Assembly (NCBI GenBank): GCA_021819035.1
Contig: JAKASL010000002.1
Coordinates: 62,001 to 126,000 of the forward strand
Reading direction: 5' to 3'
Length of the DNA stretch: 64,000 bases
DNA from: an archaeon
GTDB taxonomy: Archaea; Thermoproteota; Nitrososphaeria; Nitrososphaerales; Gagatemarchaeaceae
In this document: piece by piece, positions 39,832 to 64,000 of the stretch
How the letters are laid out: every line of letters begins with the position of its first letter
Numbering within the stretch: the first letter of the stretch is position 1
The notes under the pieces: generated by a model
Told to the model about the DNA's origin: nothing
Databases searched by the model: none
The model's input: only the letters and a program-made list of their open reading frames with translations
Translations under genes and position numbers: made by a program

Positions 39832-40584
39832 TCAGGATTTCTTCAGCGCCCTCGAACCCGAGATTGTGAAGCCGCTCCTGTACACGGCCCCGGAGACCGG
39901 CTCAATCTTTCCCACGTCCAGGCTCGTCCGCAGCTCTCCGTCCCCGAGCCAGACGTCAGTCACCCTGAAGTTCGACTTGAGCACCTCGACCGGCTCGTCC
40001 ACGCTCTGCTGGCTCTCGTCTGTCCGCGGGTATTTTCTCATCCCGAAGGTAGGACCGAAGCTTGGAAGTTCGGAAGCGGCCCCCTGCCTCTTCACGGCCA
40101 CCTTCAGGGACAGCACCTGGTCTGGGCCCTTGACGCAGAACCCCCCGAAGCGGCTCCCCTCGGACACAGGCCCCATCCCCGGGTTAAGCGGGTGGAGCTT
40201 CGTCACCGAGATCCTGTCGGCGAGGCGCTTTTGGTAGCCGTTGAGGAGCCCTCTCAGGAGGGACCACTCGGTGGTCACCCACATCACAGGGAAGTAAGTC
40301 CCCGGCCGCGCCGCGTACTTGCACTTCACTCCTATCGCGGCTTCGTGGTACAGCGTCCTGTCCGGCCGGTCGGACGCCATCTCAAGGGCGGAGTCGGCGA
40401 CCGAGACTATCTCGCAGACGTAGCCCAGGCAGAGGCCGTCGGCGACCTCGAAGGGCTCAGGGACGATGTTTGCAAGCGCGTGCCTTTCCGCCCTGAAGTA
40501 GACGGTGACGTAATCCGCCCCGTAGTGCCAAGGGCCCTCCTCTATGGCAGAAGTCTTGCCGGGGGAGAGGGGGTGGTCGAGCAC
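39832..40584 (-). CDS. Acetoacetate decarboxylase family protein
   Basis: About 250 residues from GTG 40584. Decarboxylase family (ADC fold): EGPWHYGADYVTVYFRAE near the start, GLCLGYVCEIVSVADS, then YHEAAIGVKCKYAARPGTYFPVMWV, and the LGDGELR segment near the end. The reading frame runs to 40782, but the conserved part begins only near 40580, and CCTTTTTTACC (40606-40616) gives the leaderless distance to GTG 40584. Divergent from the fumarylacetoacetate-hydrolase-like gene, so probably part of the same aromatic pathway rather than acetone formation. Catalytic lysine not assigned with confidence. Confidence 0.85.
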   Translation of the reverse strand: MLDHPLSPGKTSAIEEGPWHYGADYVTVYFRAERHALANIVPEPFEVADGLCLGYVCEIVSVADSALEMASDRPDRTLYHEAAIGVKCKYAARPGTYFPVMWVTTEWSLLRGLLNGYQKRLADRISVTKLHPLNPGMGPVSEGSRFGGFCVKGPDQVLSLKVAVKRQGAASELPSFGPTFGMRKYPRTDESQQSVDEPVEVLKSNFRVTDVWLGDGELRTSLDVGKIEPVSGAVYRSGFTISGSRALKKS

Positions 40585-40603
40585 GAGGATGCGGAGGGGG
40601 TCA

Positions 40604-40617
40604 AAGGTAAAAAAGGT
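40604..40617. promoter_or_regulatory. Shared TATA for two divergent leaderless genes
   Basis: AAGGTAAAAAAGG is the only A/T-rich stretch in the 52 bases between the two start codons. It is centred about 26-27 bp from GTG 40584 on the minus strand and from ATG 40637 on the plus strand. Both distances match the leaderless spacing used elsewhere in this window, so one box seems to direct transcription both ways. Confidence 0.6.
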
Positions 40618-40636
40618 TGGGCGGCGCGCGGGGACC

Positions 40637-41542
40637 ATGAGATTCTGTACTTTCACCCTCCCCATGGAAGGGGGGAGGAGCCGCAGGGCGGGGCTCGTCG
40701 CGGACGAGACGGTCTTCGAGATCGATGGGTCCAGACCGCTGGACCAGGTCATAGCCGAGGGGAGGTGGAGAGACGTGATCACGAAGAAGACTTACGGTCT
40801 GTCCGACGTGATGCTCCATGCGCCTGTGTCGCGCCCGGGAAAGATACTCGCGGCGATAGTCAACACCAGCGGCATGCTCGGCGGGTCGGACATAACGCTC
40901 GACAGGCCGAGGGTCGACATGAAGGCGCCCAGCACGGTGGTCGGGCCAGGTACGTCGATCCGGGCAGCCCCTGGCGGGATAAGGCCGGAGGTGGAGCTGG
41001 CGGCCATCGTTGGCAAGATGATCTCCGGGGCCACAGAAGCCGAGGCGGCCGCATCCATCTTCGGATACACCATCCTGAACGATGTCACCGCCCCGAGAGA
41101 CTCCCGGGAGGACGCATACGAAGCTTACAGGCGCGACAAGTCGACCGGGGAGATCAAGAAGACGATGATGCGGGGGCCGCTGTTCAGGTCCAAGAACCAT
41201 GACACGTTCTGCCCTATGGGCCCGTGGGTGATAACCCCAGACGAGTTTGACGCTTCTGAGGGCCACCTGATGGCCACGCTCTTCAACGGCCAGCTGGTCC
41301 AGGAAGGCTCGACCTCCGAATACATCTTCGGACCGGCAAAGCTCGCATCCTATCTCTCAGGGTTCCTCACACTTGAACCAGGGGATGTCGTCTCCTGCGG
41401 GAGCGTAGGGTGGACCAAGGAAGCCATCGGGGACCGGGACCCCACCGAGTTCGTCATCTCACCAGCGGGGGGGACCCTCCAGCTCGAGATCGAGGGCCTA
41501 GGAAGCCTCGCCAACCCCGTCGCCCCCGCCTTGGACCCCTGA
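40637..41542 (+). CDS. Fumarylacetoacetate hydrolase family protein
   Basis: 301 residues from ATG 40637 (MRFCTFTLPMEGGRSRRAG). The C-terminal FAH domain shows PEVELAAIVGK near residue 117 (metal Glu), GYTILNDVTAPRDSR (metal Asp region), FRSKNHDTFCPMGPWVIT with the conserved Lys, LFNGQLVQEGST, and GDVVSCGSVGW. The family covers HpaG-type decarboxylase/isomerases and hydrolases of aromatic ring-cleavage products, which fits the HpaB and extradiol dioxygenase genes 1-3 kb away. Upstream frame to 40544 is ignored because the TATA at 40604-40617 would lie inside it. Confidence 0.9.
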   Translation: MRFCTFTLPMEGGRSRRAGLVADETVFEIDGSRPLDQVIAEGRWRDVITKKTYGLSDVMLHAPVSRPGKILAAIVNTSGMLGGSDITLDRPRVDMKAPSTVVGPGTSIRAAPGGIRPEVELAAIVGKMISGATEAEAAASIFGYTILNDVTAPRDSREDAYEAYRRDKSTGEIKKTMMRGPLFRSKNHDTFCPMGPWVITPDEFDASEGHLMATLFNGQLVQEGSTSEYIFGPAKLASYLSGFLTLEPGDVVSCGSVGWTKEAIGDRDPTEFVISPAGGTLQLEIEGLGSLANPVAPALDP

Positions 41543-42799
41543 CCCCGGGCTGACGGGGGGTCTCGAGTTCCAATAAATGACGTAGACCGCGACGACGGAA
41601 GCGGCCGTCGTGATGATCGCGAAGGCGAACAGGCCGGCGTCCCCCAGCCACCCCTGGATCAAGCCGCCGGGGAGGGGTCCGAAGCTCCATAGGGTGGAGT
41701 TTACCAGCGAGAAGACGCCCATGTACTCGGCCGTCCGCCCCTCAGGCGCTATCTTGCTCACCCAGCTTAGCATCGCGGGGCTCAGGAGCCCGAAACCCAT
41801 GGAGTAGATGATCCGTGCGGGGACGAGCTCTGGCCAGGCACCCGAGGCGACGTAGATGGCCAGCGCAACGCCTACGGTCAATGTCCCGTATATGTATCCT
41901 CGAATCTCCCCCAAGGTGTCGACCTTGCTTCCCAGCTTCGTCGCCAGGAGGGCGGTGGTCCCCAGCCCAGCGACAGCTATCAGGCTGACCTCGAAGTAGT
42001 TGGCGCCCAGGAAGTAGGCATAGGCCCCGATGAAGGCCGTGACCGCCCCCGTCCCGATGGCCCTGATGGAGGTGGCGAAGGAGAAGACAACCACGCCCTT
42101 CATCTCTCTGAGAGGGCGGCGGGACATCGAAGGCTTCACTGTGCTCTCTGGGAGCGCGAAGACGAGCAGCAGCAGGTCTGCCACGATGAAGAACCCGACG
42201 AGGTAGAAGATTGCGTCGATGCCGACGTATTCCGAGACCAGCCCCGCCGCGACAACCCCGACTATTGAGCCCAAGGCGCCCACCTGGCTGAGGAAGCCGT
42301 ACCCCCGTCCGCGGTCCCTGGAAGCGGTGACGTCGGCCACGTAGGCCTGAAGGGCGGTGCTCCCGACCGATAGGACAGCCTCCCCGATGAGGAAGGACGC
42401 GCTGATGGCGATGAAACCGCCGAGGAATGGGATGAGTACGAAGAAGGGGAGAGACGCGGCCTCGGATATGATGAGGAGGAGCCGCCTCCGCCCCATCCGA
42501 TCTGAGAGCCGGCCGGCGAACGGCCCGGTCAGGCTGGCCGCCACGTAAGCCGCGGAGAAGGCGGTGAGGGCGGCAGCCACCGATACTCCGTCCTTCTCGA
42601 CGACGTAGAGGACGAAGAACACGGTGAAAAGGCTCGATCGGTTGTTGGAGAGCATCTGGTAGAGAGAGAGTATCAGGAGGGTGCGGCCCCCAGATCCACG
42701 CGCGGGGCTGGCTTGGACTGCAGTGGGGGGGCCCGTCAATCGGGGTCTCAAGAAGGCGCCCGGGGTTCTGCGCTTAAGGGTTCCATCGTCCCGCCGCAA
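41498..42799 (-). CDS. MFS transporter, 12-helix type
   Basis: 433 residues. The first ~38 residues are basic and non-hydrophobic, then about 12 membrane helices. Motif A reads GRLSDRMGRRRLLL near residue 99. The TTG start at 42799 is the first available; no TATA stands at the right distance, so translation may start further in (TTG codons near residues 18 and 22, or ATG near residue 49, which is too late). The end overlaps the FAH gene by 45 bases. Placed between FAH and HpaB genes, it may import or export an aromatic acid. Confidence 0.87.
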   Translation of the reverse strand: MRRDDGTLKRRTPGAFLRPRLTGPPTAVQASPARGSGGRTLLILSLYQMLSNNRSSLFTVFFVLYVVEKDGVSVAAALTAFSAAYVAASLTGPFAGRLSDRMGRRRLLLIISEAASLPFFVLIPFLGGFIAISASFLIGEAVLSVGSTALQAYVADVTASRDRGRGYGFLSQVGALGSIVGVVAAGLVSEYVGIDAIFYLVGFFIVADLLLLVFALPESTVKPSMSRRPLREMKGVVVFSFATSIRAIGTGAVTAFIGAYAYFLGANYFEVSLIAVAGLGTTALLATKLGSKVDTLGEIRGYIYGTLTVGVALAIYVASGAWPELVPARIIYSMGFGLLSPAMLSWVSKIAPEGRTAEYMGVFSLVNSTLWSFGPLPGGLIQGWLGDAGLFAFAIITTAASVVAVYVIYWNSRPPVSPGSGVQGGGDGVGEAS

Positions 42800-42840: not shown

Positions 42841-44289
42841 ATGGGAGCCAAGAGCGGGAAGGAGTTCCTCCAGCGGCTCGACTCGACCCCCCGTGAGGTG
42901 TGGTACGGGGGACAGAAGATCACCAGGGACGTATCACACCATCCGGCGTTCAGGGGCGTGGCCAGGTCCATCGCAGCGCTCTACGACATGCAACTGAAGC
43001 CCGAGCTTAAGGACGTCATGACCTACGAGTCCCCGGCGACCCACGAGCCGGTCGGGACGAGCTTCATGCAGCCCAGGACGATGGACGACCTGGCAAAACG
43101 GACCGCCATGATGACAGCCTGGGCCAACTACTCTGGCGGCATGATGGGTAGGACGGCGGACTACTTGAACAGCTCGATCATGGCCATGGCGGCGGCCAAG
43201 GAGTTCTTCGGGGAAGGGGAGACGGACTTCGCATCCAACATCTCGAGATACTACGAGTACGTCCGAGAGAACGACCTGATACTCACACACACGCTCATCA
43301 ACCCTCAGGCCAACAGGAGCGTCGGGCCATCGAAGCAGGCAGACCCGTTCATCGCGGCCAGGGTGGCCGACAAGACGTCGGAGGGTGTGGTGATGAGGGG
43401 CGCGAGGATGCTGGCGACGCTCCCCATTGCAGACGAGATCTTGGTCTTCCCGTCTACGCTCATCAGGTCGGGGCAGGACGACATGCCCTACTCCGTCGCG
43501 TTCGCCATCCCGGTGAGCGCCAAAGGGCTCAAGTTCGTCTGTAGGGAGTCGTTCGCGGCCGAGTCAGCCTACGACCATCCGCTCGCCTCGCGCTTCGACG
43601 AGCAGGACGCCGTGGTGGTTTTCGACGACGTCCTCGTCCCCTGGGACAGGGTCTTCATACTCGAGGATCCGGAGAGAGCAAACAGCGTCAACGACGCCAC
43701 CGGCGCCGTGGTTTTCATGGCTCATCAGGCGACGGTGAGAGAGGCGGCGAAGGCAGAGTTCATGGCAGGGTTGATGACTATGGTCGCCGAGACCATCGGG
43801 GCGGACGTCTTCCCCCAGGTGCAAGAGAGGATTGCGAACATACTCCTGACGGCGGAGACGATGAAGGCGTTCATCAGGTCGAGCGAGGCCGGGGCGAAGG
43901 TGAGCCAGTGGGGGGTGATCACCCCCGACTATGTCCCACTCAACACGGCCAGGAACCTGTGGCCCAGGCTGGCGCCTGAACTGGCCGCCGTGATGAAACA
44001 GACGGGGGCGAGCGGGCTGATGGCCATACCCCCAGAGGGGACGCTTGGCTCAGAGGCGCGGAAGGACTTCGACAGGTATTATCAGTCTAAGACGGCGGAC
44101 GCAAAGGAGAGGGTGGGGCTGTTCAAGATGGCCTGGGACGCGGTGGGGAGCTCTTTCGGAGGGAGACAGGACCTCTATGAGAGGTTCTTCTTCGGTGACC
44201 CGGTGAGGATGGCGAGCGCCTACTATGCCTGGTACGACAAGGAGCCCTACAGGCAACGGGTGAAGGAGCTCCTGCACAGGAGGGGTTGA
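42841..44289 (+). CDS. hpaB: 4-hydroxyphenylacetate 3-monooxygenase, oxygenase part
   Basis: FADH2-dependent hydroxylase that turns 4-hydroxyphenylacetate (or a similar phenol) into a catechol. 482 residues, standard length. Family features: SLDSTPREVWYGGQKI-like N-terminus, THTLINPQANRS near residue 153, a long acyl-CoA-dehydrogenase-like core and FDDVLVPWDRVF near residue 262. The fold needs reduced FAD from a partner, given by the flavin reductase at 45297. ATG at 42841; CAATTAGAA at about 42804-42812 is a possible TATA. Overlaps the dioxygenase gene or abuts it. Confidence 0.92.
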   Translation: MGAKSGKEFLQRLDSTPREVWYGGQKITRDVSHHPAFRGVARSIAALYDMQLKPELKDVMTYESPATHEPVGTSFMQPRTMDDLAKRTAMMTAWANYSGGMMGRTADYLNSSIMAMAAAKEFFGEGETDFASNISRYYEYVRENDLILTHTLINPQANRSVGPSKQADPFIAARVADKTSEGVVMRGARMLATLPIADEILVFPSTLIRSGQDDMPYSVAFAIPVSAKGLKFVCRESFAAESAYDHPLASRFDEQDAVVVFDDVLVPWDRVFILEDPERANSVNDATGAVVFMAHQATVREAAKAEFMAGLMTMVAETIGADVFPQVQERIANILLTAETMKAFIRSSEAGAKVSQWGVITPDYVPLNTARNLWPRLAPELAAVMKQTGASGLMAIPPEGTLGSEARKDFDRYYQSKTADAKERVGLFKMAWDAVGSSFGGRQDLYERFFFGDPVRMASAYYAWYDKEPYRQRVKELLHRRG

Positions 44290-57945: not shown

Positions 57946-58199
57946 TCACGTTGCTACGCCAGACCATCTCATCAGGGTGACAAATTCATTCAAGAGAAGG
58001 GGAAAACCGGTGACGTATACGAACAGGACCATCAAGTAGTCGGAAGGCACTGGTTTGACACCAGGGATTCCGATTGTGACCACCAGCCCAACCACCAGCA
58101 ACCGCAACTGCCATAAGCAGCGTCTTGCTGGGTGACGATTTCCAGAAGCATTTCATCTCTCTCATGGGCAGAACCGTGAACATTCCAAGATAGAACACT
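57946..58199 (-). pseudogene. C-terminal remnant of a P-type proton ATPase
   Basis: Frame one: VFYLGMFTVLPMREMKCFWK then SSPSKTLLMAV. Frame two, after a shift near 58086-58095: VVTIGIPGVKPVPSDYLMVLF and LLLNEFVTLM, then stop at 57946. This follows the end of the Pma1-like ATPase found at 61625-64000 (LFNVFVLRERKHFWHSMPGKPLLLAI in the last helices), so it is a dead gene tail of that family. The gene's body is missing: the sequence is cut about 18 bp before the IS110 gene's end. Confidence 0.7.
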
Positions 58200-58217
58200 C
58201 ATGAAAGACATTGCAGT

Positions 58218-59284
58218 CTAGGCTGACGGTCCCAGGCCTGCATTCTGCCAGCCGTCTTCGTTCCACTGGGCCATCGAGTTAAACCTCGTCTCGTACCTCT
58301 TCTCGTTTCTCAATCTGTACGGTTCTCTTTTGGAGAGCATGAACCAAATTATCCTCAGCAGCTTCGCGGTCGCCGCAACAATCGCCTTCTGGCTCCCTTT
58401 CTTCCTTGCAAGCCTGTTGTAGAACAGGGCGAGCCTCCCGTCGGGCTCGTTCCTGATGTTGATTCGAGCGCACTGACCGAGTATCCATCTCAGATACGGG
58501 CTCCCTGTCTTGGTGATCCCTCCGTGGTACGCCGTTCCTCCTGAGGGGTGCGTCGACGGGAAGAGGCCTGCGTAGGCGACGAGGCTGTCGGAGTCTTGGA
58601 ACCTGGACACGTCCCCTATTCCGCAGGTGACGAGGAGGGCCGAGTAGAACGAGACGCCAGGAATCGTCATCAGGAGCCTGACCCCGGCGTCGTCGGCAGC
58701 CTCCTTCGATATGACCCTCGACGCTTCATGGACCTCCCTGTCGATCGACTCGACCAGTCTCAGACAGCCCTGAACCTTCAGGTCGTCGATCTTCCGGATC
58801 ACCTCGACGAACCCTTTGGAGAACGGCTTCGCATCAATCCGTACGTTGTTCATGGGGAGATATCCGTGGATTCGGTTCTTGACGTTGGTCCTCATCCTGA
58901 CGAGGTTCGCCCTGTACCTGACGAGTTCCCTCAGTTCCATGGTCTTCTTCGTAGGGATGTACGATTCGGCTATGTACCCTCCTCTCAAGAGGTTCGCGAG
59001 GGTCAAGGCGTCGACCCGGTCAGTCTTCAGCTTCGCTGACGCTATGGCTTTCGTCTTCAAGGGGTTGGAGAGGACGACGTGGTGCCTCCGACCAAGCATC
59101 TGGTAGACCCAGTATCAGGTCGAAGAGGATTCGATCACTGCCTCGGTACCTTGGGGAAGGTCGTCAGAGAACCTTTCCATGTTCTCCTGACTGTTCTCGA
59201 TCCTCTCTTCTCTGTCCACGGTGCCATCTTCTCCATCACAACCGCCTGCGAGCACGCCTTGTGGAGGTCGAGGGACACGTACAT
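58218..59284 (-). mobile_element. IS110-family transposase, broken by stop and frameshift
   Basis: From ATG 59284: SLDLHKACSQAVV (first Asp of the DEDD RuvC-like site) is followed by a one-base loss near 59225-59232, then EERIENSQENMERF, TEAVIESSST (the Glu), an in-frame TGA (59115-59117) in place of a conserved Trp, YWVYQML, KTDRVDALTLANLL (the two further Asp), and from about residue 190 the transposase_20 domain (LLMTIPGVSFYSALLV, GLFPSTHPSGGTAYHG). About 355 residues in total if repaired. Base composition is closer to the host than to the genes on its right. Ends and bridge RNA were not found. Confidence 0.88.
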
Positions 59285-59425
59285 GGGAAAGGCGTCGTCT
59301 GATTGCTTCTTACGGTGATGCGTTTGGTCCGGATGATGAGGTGCTCTCTTACCGCTCACATCCGACTAACAGAGTCCTATCGACCGAGAGGAAGACATTT
59401 TACTGGGCGCCCCCGTCTTTATCGC

Positions 59426-61417
59426 ATGTCTCTTGAGCCCCTTTTCAGACCATCGAGCATTGCCGTTGTAGGTGCTTCGAGGGAGAAATCGAAGATTGGC
59501 AACATAATTCTGCGCAACTTGATGGGGACTTACAACGGCAAAATCTTGCCGATCAATCCCTCCGCGGAAGTCGTGGAAGGCATTCCCGCATTCAGATCTT
59601 TGGCCGATGCAAGGGCGCCAGTGGATCTGATGGTAGTCGCTGTTCCGCGAGAAATCGTACCCAAAGTAGTCGGTGAAGCCATCGAGAGCGGCGTCAAGGC
59701 CGGAATAATCATAACTTCCGGATTCCGTGAAGCAGACGCGATCGGCGCAAAACTAGAGGCGGAAATCACGGAAGCTGCCTCCAAAAGCGGTCTGCGTCTT
59801 CTGGGACCAAACACGTTGGGGTTGATCACGCGGAGGTTCAATGCCACCTTCAGTTTCTCAGACGTGAAGGTCGGTGGACTCGCACTGGTGAGCCAGAGCG
59901 GAGGAATAGGGGTGTACATGCTCAATTGGGCACACAGGACGCGCACTGGATTGAGTCATTTTGTCAGTCTTGGGAACCAGTGCAACGTGACTGAAGCGGA
60001 TGTCTACGAGTACCTTTCGACCGACGAGGAAACAAAGGCGATTTTCAGCTACAACGAAGGGGTGGCAAACGGCAAAGCCTTCCTGGAAACTGTCTCGCGA
60101 GTTACCACGAAGAAACCCATCGTCTTCCTGAAGGGCGGCCTCGGTAAGAAGGGGGCGGAAGCGGTCAAGACTCATACGGGAAGCCTCGCCGGGTCTTCCG
60201 AGTTGTTCAGAGCTGCCGTGAGGACTTGCGGTGGCATCTACGTGGAGAGCCTGGAGGAGTTCTTGGACCTCGCGAAACTCGTACTTTCAGGCGAAAAAGT
60301 CCAACCCGAAATTCTCTTGATCACGAACTCTGGAGGTCACGGCGTACTTGCAACCGATGAGATCGAGCGCCAAGGGTTGAGCCTGGCCAAGCTTCCGGAC
60401 GAGATTTCAAAGAAACTCAGAAGTATTTTGCCAGTTCAAAGCTTACCAAAGAACCCGCTTGATCTCTCAGGAGACGCGGATGCCGCAAGGTACTCCGCCG
60501 CGTTGAACTCTGTCCAGGACATTGATTGCACAAAAGTCGTGATGGTTCAGTCACTCCCAACCATCAGCTGTTCGGAGTTCGCAAGAGTGCTGCTGAATTA
60601 CAAGGGAAATAGCGTCATGGGAGTCGTAATGGGAATGGACGAGGAAGCGGCTGTAAGGACCTTGGAGTCATCGGGGGTGCCTGCTTACAGATTCCCAGAG
60701 GATGCTATTCGCTCGCTCAATCACTTGATTTCAAGACATAACCCAATAGTGAAGAAACCAACGTCAAACCCACCGCAAGAAGCTTCACGTGTTGTCTCCG
60801 GCAAGTCCTACTTGAGCGATGATGATGCGTTCAGGATAATGCGCATCTACGGCTTGGGAACAGCAAAATGGGGGATCGCGAGCGAAGTGCGCGAGGCCGA
60901 ACAAACAGCCGATCGCATTGGCTGCCCTGTCGTAATGAAGATTTCTACCGATTCGCCCACTCATAAGACAGAACTGGGAGGCGTAAGAGTAAACGTAGAA
61001 CGGAACGAGGTCTCAACGGCTTTTCAAGAGCTTTCAAAGATCTCGCCTAGAGTACTCATCCAACAGCAGCTTTCTGGTGCAGAGATATTCATTGGAGGGA
61101 TTGACGACGCAACATTTGGAAAGGCAGTAGTGGTCGGTTTGGGTGGAACGTACGTAGAGGTTTTCAAGACGCTGAGCTACGGACTCTGTCCGTTATATGA
61201 AGAGGAGGCAAGGGACATGTTAGAACAAAGCAAAGTCTCCGAGCTTCTCTCCGCGAGGAAGAGGAACTATGATGAAACCTCCGTCGTTGATTCACTTACT
61301 AAGATTTCGCGCATGATAGTTGACCTCGATGTCAAACAACTTGACGTCAACCCAGTGATAGTGAATGAAAGTGGAAGCTATGTGGTCGATGCCAGGATAG
61401 TTCTTTCGTCCTCCTGA
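59426..61417 (+). CDS. ADP-forming acyl-CoA synthetase
   Basis: Forms acyl-CoA and ADP + Pi from acid, CoA and ATP (or the reverse, gaining ATP). 663 residues, alpha and beta fused: CoA-binding Rossmann (FRPSSIAVVGASREKSKIGNI), LLGPNTLGLI, phosphohistidine in VKTHTGSLAGSSELF near residue 250, then an ATP-grasp beta domain from about 465 (YGLGTAKWGIA, ELGGVRVNV). Substrate unknown; acetate, 3-hydroxypropionate and aryl acids are options. ATG 59426 has ACATTTTACTGGG at about 59394-59406; the frame runs further up but only as a non-homologous extension. GC and codon use (AAA, GAA, ATT) differ from the rest of the window. Confidence 0.92.
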   Translation: MSLEPLFRPSSIAVVGASREKSKIGNIILRNLMGTYNGKILPINPSAEVVEGIPAFRSLADARAPVDLMVVAVPREIVPKVVGEAIESGVKAGIIITSGFREADAIGAKLEAEITEAASKSGLRLLGPNTLGLITRRFNATFSFSDVKVGGLALVSQSGGIGVYMLNWAHRTRTGLSHFVSLGNQCNVTEADVYEYLSTDEETKAIFSYNEGVANGKAFLETVSRVTTKKPIVFLKGGLGKKGAEAVKTHTGSLAGSSELFRAAVRTCGGIYVESLEEFLDLAKLVLSGEKVQPEILLITNSGGHGVLATDEIERQGLSLAKLPDEISKKLRSILPVQSLPKNPLDLSGDADAARYSAALNSVQDIDCTKVVMVQSLPTISCSEFARVLLNYKGNSVMGVVMGMDEEAAVRTLESSGVPAYRFPEDAIRSLNHLISRHNPIVKKPTSNPPQEASRVVSGKSYLSDDDAFRIMRIYGLGTAKWGIASEVREAEQTADRIGCPVVMKISTDSPTHKTELGGVRVNVERNEVSTAFQELSKISPRVLIQQQLSGAEIFIGGIDDATFGKAVVVGLGGTYVEVFKTLSYGLCPLYEEEARDMLEQSKVSELLSARKRNYDETSVVDSLTKISRMIVDLDVKQLDVNPVIVNESGSYVVDARIVLSSS

Positions 61418-61473
61418 ATAGAATATGGTCTTAAGTCAAGAGCCAGATGGTTTGAACACTTTCAATCAGGGTC

Positions 61474-61623
61474 ATGCCTAGAATTGAAGAATCAGGAGTC
61501 AATTCCGAAAAGATCGTACCATTTGGGTGGACACAACAGATTGCGTCGAGCGCACACAACGTGTATTACATTCGGCCCTTTGATTACTGGAAAACTGACA
61601 ACTTTGACTGGTTGATTGCATAA
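61474..61623 (+). CDS. Possible small protein before the proton ATPase
   Basis: A 49-residue frame starting MPRIEESGVNSEKIVPFGWTQ and ending FDWLIA, whose stop is one base from the ATPase start. No motif and no good TATA at the leaderless distance. It could be a real small gene coupled to the ATPase, or chance; support is weak. Confidence 0.25.
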   Translation: MPRIEESGVNSEKIVPFGWTQQIASSAHNVYYIRPFDYWKTDNFDWLIA

Positions 61624-61624
61624 C

Positions 61625-64000
61625 TTGTCCAATCGGGAAGAACGACGAGAAGTGGAAGAAACCACAGAATTTCTGGAAGAGGGACTCACGGCCTCCGAAG
61701 CTGCGACGAGGCTCTCAAGATATGGATACAATGAAGTTCCATCCAAGAAAACCAGCTTCGCATTAATGGTGGCGAAGAAGTTTTGGGGCATTACACCGTG
61801 GATGCTCGAGATAACAATTGTACTCACTTGGGTGCTTGGCCGCTATCCAGATACGTACGCTGTCAGCGGTTTGCTTGTTTTCAACGCAGTTCTCAGCATC
61901 TTTGAAGAAAAGCGAGCAAACTCCGCAGTAGAATTCCTAAAGCAAGAGCTGAGTATCCAAGCAAAGGTGAAGAGGAATGGCAAGTGGATTGTGTTACAAG
62001 GACGTGAACTCGTATTGGGCGACACGGTTCGCCTCAGGACTGGCGACGTAGTTCCTGCGGATATCAAAGCAGCTCACGGAACGGCCGAGGTGGATCAATC
62101 GGCTCTCACCGGGGAGTCGCTCTCTGTCTCCAGGAAGGAAGGAGACACAATATACAGCGGCTCGATTCTCGCAAGAGGTGAAGTTACAGGCGTCGTCACA
62201 GCCACAGGTACGAGGACCTATTTCGGGAGAACGATTGAGCTTGTGCAGCTTGCGAAGCCGAGGCTCCATATGGAAGAGGTGACAGCGAGCGTGGTCCGCT
62301 GGCTCATCGTGATGGTAGCTGTTCTACTTGGAGTTGCTCTCACCATTTCGTTCATACGGCACGAGGACTTGACACAGATAATTCCACTGGCAGTAGTTCT
62401 CTTGGTATCAGCTATACCAGTCGCCCTGCCAGCAATGTTCAGCATCAGCATGGCTCTGGGATCACTCGAGCTCGTGAAGAAAGGCGTCCTCGTTACTAGG
62501 CTCAGCGCCTCCGAGGACGCGGCAACGATGGACGTACTGTGCACAGACAAGACCGGCACACTGACAAAAAACAAACTTGTAATCTCAGGAACTAGGGCAC
62601 ACAACGGTTTCGATGACGCAGATACAATTCTTCTCGGGGCGCTTGCCTCGAACGAGGCAGATCAGGATCCTATCGACATCGCATTCTTGGCCGCTGCGAA
62701 GAAGATGGGATTGCCAGTGTCGAATTACTCGCAGAACGAGTTTTCCCCGTTTGATCCCTCGACTCGAATGACAAAAGCTGCAATATCCAGCGAGAAGGGC
62801 AAATTTTACGTTGCAAAAGGTGCGACATCGTCAATTGCGGAACTCTGCAGACTCGAAGGCCAAAGGTATGAAGCGATGAGCCAGAGCGTAGAGGAATTCA
62901 CAAAAAGGGGTTTCAGGGTGCTTGCTGTAGCACGAGGAGAATCTCAAGACACATTCAATCTCGCAGGCGTGGTCGCCCTTAGCGACGAACTGAGAGAAGA
63001 TTCGCCGAAACTTGTGCAGGAGCTCCGAGCCCTCGGCGTCTCTGTCAAAATGCTCACTGGAGATGCCTTACTTGTAGCAAGAGAAGTTGCTCAGAAGCTT
63101 TCATTGGGGCCGAGGGTGGAGAAGATGTCCGAAGTCAAGCAATTCAAAGACGAAGACAGATTTTCTCGCATCGTCGAGGAAAGCTCAGGCATCGCCGAAA
63201 TCTACCCCGAAGACAAATACGAAATCGTCAAAGGTCTCCAGAGAAGGAAGCATGTGGTCGGGATGACCGGTGACGGGGTCAACGACGCTGCTGCTCTCAA
63301 ACAGGCCGAAGTGGGTATCGCGGTCAAGAGCGCCACAGACGTAGCGAAAGGCGCGGCAAGTGCGGTGCTCACATTCGACGGGCTCGAACCCATAGTCGAA
63401 ATGGTCAAGATAGGTCGAATGGTGTATCAGAGGGTCCTCACCTGGGTCATCAACAAGATAGTGAAGACATTCCAGGTTGTGGTCTTCGTGGTGCTTGCTT
63501 TTCTGGTGACAGGAAACTTCGTAGTATCAATCTTCAGCATGGTGCTGTACCTCTTTCTCACGGACTTCGTCACTCTTTCGATTTCAACCGACAAAGTCAG
63601 ATTTTCGCAAAAACCGGACACCTGGAACATCGGCTGGCTTGTGGGGCTCGGAGTCCTAGTCGGAGCGCTGACTGTCGCTGAATCCTTCACGGCGCTATAC
63701 GTCGGCATGGAAGTCTTTGGTGGAATGAGTGGAGACTTGGCAAGGTTGCACATGTTCATCTTTGCATACCTCGTCTTCAGCGGACTCTTCAACGTATTCG
63801 TCCTGAGAGAGAGAAAGCATTTTTGGCACTCCATGCCGGGCAAACCACTTCTCCTGGCGATAATCGCAGACGTAGCGCTTGTGAGCGCCATCTCTCTATT
63901 TGGATTCTACAACCTCTCGCCAATTACTTTGGCAGAGCTCAGCTTTGCGTTGGGCTGGGCCTTCGCAAGCTCGTTTATCATCAATGACCCGATCAAGGTC
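61625..64000 (+). CDS. P-type proton ATPase, Pma1-like, partial
   Basis: Runs off the window end with 792 codons and no stop. Cytoplasmic N-terminus (GLTASEAATRLSRYGYNEVP), M1-M2, TGES in VDQSALTGESLSVSRK near residue 163, M4 with LVSAIPVALPAMF near residue 260, phosphorylation site CTDKTGTLTKNK near residue 305, and GMTGDGVNDAAALKQAEVGIAV near residue 547, then membrane helices. This is the P3A (H+-exporting) type, found in archaea and linked to pH homeostasis. TTG 61625 (or TTG 61616) is the first start after TGA 61613. Low GC like the gene before it. Confidence 0.9.
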   Translation, partial: MSNREERREVEETTEFLEEGLTASEAATRLSRYGYNEVPSKKTSFALMVAKKFWGITPWMLEITIVLTWVLGRYPDTYAVSGLLVFNAVLSIFEEKRANSAVEFLKQELSIQAKVKRNGKWIVLQGRELVLGDTVRLRTGDVVPADIKAAHGTAEVDQSALTGESLSVSRKEGDTIYSGSILARGEVTGVVTATGTRTYFGRTIELVQLAKPRLHMEEVTASVVRWLIVMVAVLLGVALTISFIRHEDLTQIIPLAVVLLVSAIPVALPAMFSISMALGSLELVKKGVLVTRLSASEDAATMDVLCTDKTGTLTKNKLVISGTRAHNGFDDADTILLGALASNEADQDPIDIAFLAAAKKMGLPVSNYSQNEFSPFDPSTRMTKAAISSEKGKFYVAKGATSSIAELCRLEGQRYEAMSQSVEEFTKRGFRVLAVARGESQDTFNLAGVVALSDELREDSPKLVQELRALGVSVKMLTGDALLVAREVAQKLSLGPRVEKMSEVKQFKDEDRFSRIVEESSGIAEIYPEDKYEIVKGLQRRKHVVGMTGDGVNDAAALKQAEVGIAVKSATDVAKGAASAVLTFDGLEPIVEMVKIGRMVYQRVLTWVINKIVKTFQVVVFVVLAFLVTGNFVVSIFSMVLYLFLTDFVTLSISTDKVRFSQKPDTWNIGWLVGLGVLVGALTVAESFTALYVGMEVFGGMSGDLARLHMFIFAYLVFSGLFNVFVLRERKHFWHSMPGKPLLLAIIADVALVSAISLFGFYNLSPITLAELSFALGWAFASSFIINDPIKV

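Follow-up and report, generated by a model that had tools for sequence, protein, structure and literature searches.

In bacteria, symmetry of the core promoter element reportedly leads to a pair of opposite-strand start sites, as is said of the system described in a 2021 Nat Microbiol study. Bidirectional promoters of bacteria are described with a typical spacing of 18 bp around the −10 element (PMC10268837, PMC12825309). According to the account of those of E. coli, low activity brings no interference between the two directions, and strong activation one way represses the other (PMC12825309). In archaea, BRE-TATA-BRE promoters with some 50 bp between their start sites have been described from Pyrococcus furiosus; the one reported there as tested in vitro has a spacing of 49 bp (PMC6640164). 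Our literature search for TSS maps in Thaumarchaeota found none, the one matching paper being about a different topic. The two-way archaeal promoter is already a known kind, and the locus described here appears to be a well-conserved member of it, for which two mRNAs, both with leaderless starts, are predicted.

The window (the whole stretch of 64,000 nucleotides that was analyzed), part of a Nitrososphaerota metagenome-assembled genome, contains two diverging genes, whose start codons, a GTG at 40584 on the minus strand and an ATG at 40637 on the plus strand, have 52 bp between them. We read this gap as a bidirectional archaeal core promoter, in which one box would serve two leaderless mRNAs with one complex at a time, and we give this reading a probability of roughly four in five. 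The features are as follows.

39832-40584, minus strand: acetoacetate-decarboxylase-family gene (ADC, PF06314); GTG start at 40584; Pfam E 3.5e-30
40585-40636, no strand: intergenic region, read as the whole bidirectional core promoter; 52 bp; box well conserved, flanking spacers poorly
40602-40604, plus strand: CAA, BRE-like element in the FAH direction; agrees with the CAA upstream of the TATA in the genome's own motif
40604-40616, no strand: A/T-rich box AAGGTAAAAAAGG; best match to the promoter motif whichever way it is read; corresponding site shared in all 22 orthologous pairs
40607-40614, no strand: TATA core; TAAAAAA toward FAH, TTTTTTA toward ADC
40617-40619, minus strand: TTG on the plus strand (CAA on the minus strand), BRE-like element in the ADC direction; TTG conserved in orthologs
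40637-41542, plus strand: fumarylacetoacetate-hydrolase-family gene (FAH, PF01557); ATG start at 40637; Pfam E 1.4e-41

An earlier note on this DNA had proposed that the 13-bp box lies about 26-27 bp from both start codons and that it is the only candidate TATA in the gap. Measurement agrees with the first proposal, as the center of the TATA is 26 bp from one start and 27 bp from the other. The second is also borne out. Box AAGGTAAAAAAGG is the sole stretch with at least six A/T in eight bases between the start codons, and in a scan of 260 bp the other sites, barring shifts of the box site itself, reached at most 3.6 bits toward FAH and 1.8 bits toward ADC. The flanking CAA and TTG are mirrored about position 40610.5, and either start codon has its first base 26.5 bp from this point. 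When the 18-bp unit of CAA, box and TTG was compared with its own reverse complement, 8 of 18 places matched, namely three at either end and the two central ones. It is therefore the flanks and the outline of this unit that are symmetric, rather than the A-run.

Orthologs support both start codons. ADC proteins begin at the same place, with [MVL]-L-D-H-P-L and ATG, GTG or TTG as the codon, FAH proteins begin with [MVL]-[KR]-x-C-x-F, and the protein similarity begins at or near 40584 and 40637. Upstream of both starts the in-frame sequence is unconserved and, in several species, contains stops in both frames; orthologous gap lengths vary by amounts not divisible by three. That the conserved box is coding sequence was excluded, since gaps differ by 1, 2 and 4 bases and several orthologs have stops in both frames. 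The closest PDB sequence to ADC is 5upb (E 2.4e-42). For FAH, the top NCBIfam model is HpaG C-terminal, under that model's cut-off, and the PDB match is 1gtt (E 8.8e-28).

The promoter signal of this genome was characterized with genes called by a home-made dicodon caller in 681,666 bases, or 41% of the genome. In 413 genes with an upstream gap of at least 45 bp, A/T content peaked at −35 to −24 before the start codon (0.51-0.60 at −36 to −27 versus 0.38-0.46 elsewhere); the rise was not seen in 103 genes overlapping their upstream neighbor. This peak is the pattern expected for leaderless genes and points to leaderless mRNAs with a TATA box. Shine-Dalgarno-led translation was excluded, as no clear G peak preceded the start codons in the 413 upstream regions and none was seen by eye to be conserved in the orthologous gaps. 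An EM motif was learned from 412 upstream regions of the genome, with the ADC/FAH pair left out. It consists of a BRE-like CAA, three loose bases and TTAAATA, has its modal start at −38/−37 and is estimated to be present in 59% of the regions; an equivalent motif was recovered from the relatives G005 and G016. Leaderless genes are expected to have a TATA some 26-30 bp ahead of the start codon and no Shine-Dalgarno site, and both ADC and FAH agree with this.

The box fits this motif in both directions and at its usual distance from the start codon, scoring 6.1 bits toward FAH (motif start −36) and 8.8 bits toward ADC (motif start −37). Among 2036 random genic places, 0.8% and 0.1%, respectively, scored as high, and the box outscored 59% and 84% of the training regions (n = 412). 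Toward FAH, its forward score is only average (59th percentile).

Conservation was assessed by searching for ADC in 61 genomes (our own and 60 relatives), with matches in 25. The divergent ADC/FAH pair is present in 22 of these 25, comprising 21 genomes of one genus, our own included, and G032 from another genus of the family. G011 was left out, as it repeats the arrangement of G020 at a contig end. The distant ADC homologs of G052 and G047 (32-38% identity), for which no FAH neighbor was found, were not used. In four relatives, the matched part of the ADC homolog (L035, L036, L039 and L040) contains a single in-frame TGA. Orthologous gaps are 50-65 bp long, and in all 22 pairs, which are related and do not give independent counts, the best FAH-direction and ADC-direction sites coincide within 2 bp (offset 0 in 17, 1-2 bp in five). 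The identical gaps of G004 and G006, and of G008 and G009, are all within the count of 22, and two duplicates were dropped for the alignment alone. The shared sites lie 24-34 bp from the starts. In G007 and G015 the spacing drifts to 31-34 bp, which implies short leaders or imprecise start assignment.

The flanks are conserved as well. The left CAA is present in 19 of 22 orthologs, compared with 19 of 83 head-to-tail promoters of our own genome, and the right TTG in 17/22 compared with 3/83. If the right flank is taken as TT followed by G or C, the counts become 20/22 and 8/83. A one-way FAH promoter would need no right flank, because the genome motif carries no information there. TTG is missing from the tested columns in five of the 22 orthologs; G020b carries it one column earlier, and G032 has neither CAA nor TTG in these columns. 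Cores resembling TATAAA stand in place of the A-run, at the same position, in G032, G025 and G007, so that the architecture persists there though the letters differ.

Two promoter copies of the pair, about 2 kb apart, were observed in each of G020 (L059, L061) and G011 (L057, L060). One copy has a full FAH and an ADC remnant without a start codon; the other has an ADC running off the contig end and a FAH remnant of about 40 residues. CAA and TTG are kept at both boxes. This looks like a duplication with one partner lost per copy, at a contig end where misassembly is possible.

A shared box is not unusual in this genome. In three genome samples there are 24 divergent pairs with gaps of 50-62 bp, and 18 of them have one shared site, defined as a single site that scores 4 bits or more in each of the two directions (8/10, 4/7 and 6/7 by sample); only one of the 24 has two separate sites. 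This set excludes the focal pair of our own genome and may include its orthologs in G005 and G016. The caller had set the FAH start at 40589, 48 bp earlier than 40637, and for this reason the focal pair is missing from the divergent-gap counts. Symmetry by itself proves little, because symmetric TATA elements are frequent even in head-to-tail promoters, of which 64 out of 167 score at least 4 bits when read in reverse. Among promoters with a forward score of at least 5 bits, a reverse score of at least 6 bits at the same site was found in 36 of 43 from short-gap pairs, where the two promoters of one pair are not independent, versus 22/167 head-to-tail promoters and 32/198 divergent promoters with gaps of at least 76 bp. 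In 81 pairs with gaps of 76-130 bp there were no shared sites at all, but the search windows allow hardly any other outcome, and this result is not taken as evidence. A search for a peak of divergent gaps at 50-60 bp gave 8, 6 and 7 counts per 10 bp in the three genomes, without a sharp peak in the first.

In the sample of our own genome (G000; contigs C1, C2 and C3), at least nine further divergent pairs have one shared promoter site; in one of them, what we take to be a predicted flavoprotein is paired with a TrmB-like regulator. Nine shared-site pairs, eight with gaps of 53-60 bp and one with a gap of 71 bp, were looked for in G016 and G005. Five of the nine were found again as divergent neighbors in one or the other; as the samples span only about a fifth to a quarter of these two genomes, little can be read into the misses. 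The seven places found again have gaps of 52-62 bp and one site that is top both ways within 2 bp; the extrapolated start codons were recognized on both sides at three of the seven. The class-level result (18/24) is a more interesting part of this analysis than the single pair. Adjacent to the focal locus in the window is another divergent pair, an MFS transporter (42799-41498, minus strand) and an HpaB-type monooxygenase (42841-44289, plus strand). In contrast to the shared box, this pair has two separate TATA-like sites, centered at 42774 and 42807.

It is unlikely that the box is an ordinary one-way promoter, more probably that of ADC given the better score, with the other gene transcribed by read-through, from a promoter farther upstream within the neighbor gene, or hardly at all. 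The asymmetry of the scores (8.8 versus 6.1 bits) would fit such a promoter, and partial symmetry is found in many one-way promoters. However, the flank that only the second direction would use is conserved at the frequencies given above, the spacing to both starts is kept, and neither direction has another site above 3.6 bits within 260 bp. We consider it quite improbable that the box is mainly an operator of some regulator, with the core promoters cryptic or elsewhere. A repeated operator was excluded, as the 15-mer that spans the left CAA and the box has a single exact occurrence in our own genome; matches with two mismatches were found at three other places in the genome and at one in the reversed control. 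The half-palindromic CAA...TTG outline does resemble an operator, as does a short direct repeat, AAGGT...AAGGT, in our own species. That repeat, however, is not preserved in relatives, unlike the CAA/TTG pair, the A-run is replaced by TATAAA-type cores in G025, G007 and G032, and the site is exactly where the TATA motif of the genome is expected both ways.

Two distinct, overlapping TATA boxes, one per direction, seem hardly probable at all. The best centers are 1-2 bp apart in five of the 22 orthologs, as such boxes would have them, but the offset is 0 in the other 17 and the gap has no second A/T-rich stretch. At this resolution, the distinction between one element and two overlapping ones is mostly a matter of words.

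For the single bidirectional core promoter, we infer TBP and TFB binding, start sites, leaderless mRNAs and competition from what is established for archaeal transcription and from the P. furiosus case. TBP would occupy the one A/T-rich box (40607-40614), facing either way, and contact of TFB with the left CAA (40602-40604) or with the opposite-strand CAA (40617-40619) would fix the orientation. RNA polymerase would then begin transcription at ATG 40637 or GTG 40584, a distance of about 26 bp, and the predicted products are two leaderless mRNAs, one per gene. A single complex could be present at any time; changes in access would be common to both genes, and competition would be expected under strong use. 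The proposal of one TATA element for two leaderless genes had been made in the earlier note, and the motif, the symmetric spacing, the mirrored BRE-like flanks, the 22 orthologous pairs and the genome-wide class support it well. That note had explained the two directions by the weak directionality of TBP. The shared box stands, but the mirrored CAA...TTG flanks were overlooked and probably matter more for direction, because TFB on the BRE is described as setting direction (PMC6640164).

A further proposal was that the two genes are locked into joint control. Blocking the box should affect both genes, because the core promoter would be common to ADC and FAH. Nevertheless, joint control is unproven and competition is as likely: one complex would exclude the other, and strong activation of the E. 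coli promoters in one direction represses the opposite one. The conserved pairing of ADC and FAH suggests a shared pathway. Genes nearby encode the HpaB-type monooxygenase, a glyoxalase/dioxygenase-superfamily protein and a flavin-reductase-like protein, and these neighbors together with the HpaG-like FAH may point to the breakdown of an aromatic compound. Elsewhere in the window, at 58001-64000, G+C drops from about 0.63 to 0.49-0.55; this end is possibly an acquired region.

From an archaeal group that is uncultured, the locus offers a clean, deeply conserved candidate for a core promoter shared by two protein-coding genes. The short-gap pairs (18/24 in three genome samples) are a ready set in which coupling by co-regulation could be tested against competition. 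They also provide an annotation rule for start codons in leaderless archaea, in that a divergent gap of 50-62 bp usually holds one shared box. We can speculate, with somewhat less than even confidence, that the symmetric BRE-TATA-BRE is a selected gene-pairing device in leaderless archaea of this lineage: it would set a fixed 50-60 bp between divergent mRNA genes, persist over the genus and beyond though the sequence changes, and render the two genes mutually exclusive in each initiation event, with their ratio set by the two BREs.

Like the bacterial system of the 2021 Nat Microbiol study, the locus described here combines core-element symmetry with two (predicted) start sites on opposite strands. 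Unlike the 18 bp described around the bacterial −10 element, the spacing here is about 53 bp around a TATA box. The mRNA-producing bidirectional promoters described for E. coli (PMC12825309) are similar in having one element, two divergent mRNAs and room for one polymerase; their element, however, is a Sigma-70 −10 element, without TBP, TFB or BRE, unlike the archaeal box. The resemblance to the P. furiosus BRE-TATA-BRE promoters extends to a single TATA midway between divergent starts about 50 bp apart, the starts here being taken from the leaderless pattern, and to a BRE on both sides, recognized here by the genome's own BRE-like motif as a putative TFB contact. In the P. furiosus account (PMC6640164), the reverse product studied is mostly antisense RNA taken as non-functional, and the mRNAs have leaders. 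In contrast, both products of the locus described here would be mRNAs, their predicted starts fall on the start codons, and conservation of the mirrored flank extends across a genus.
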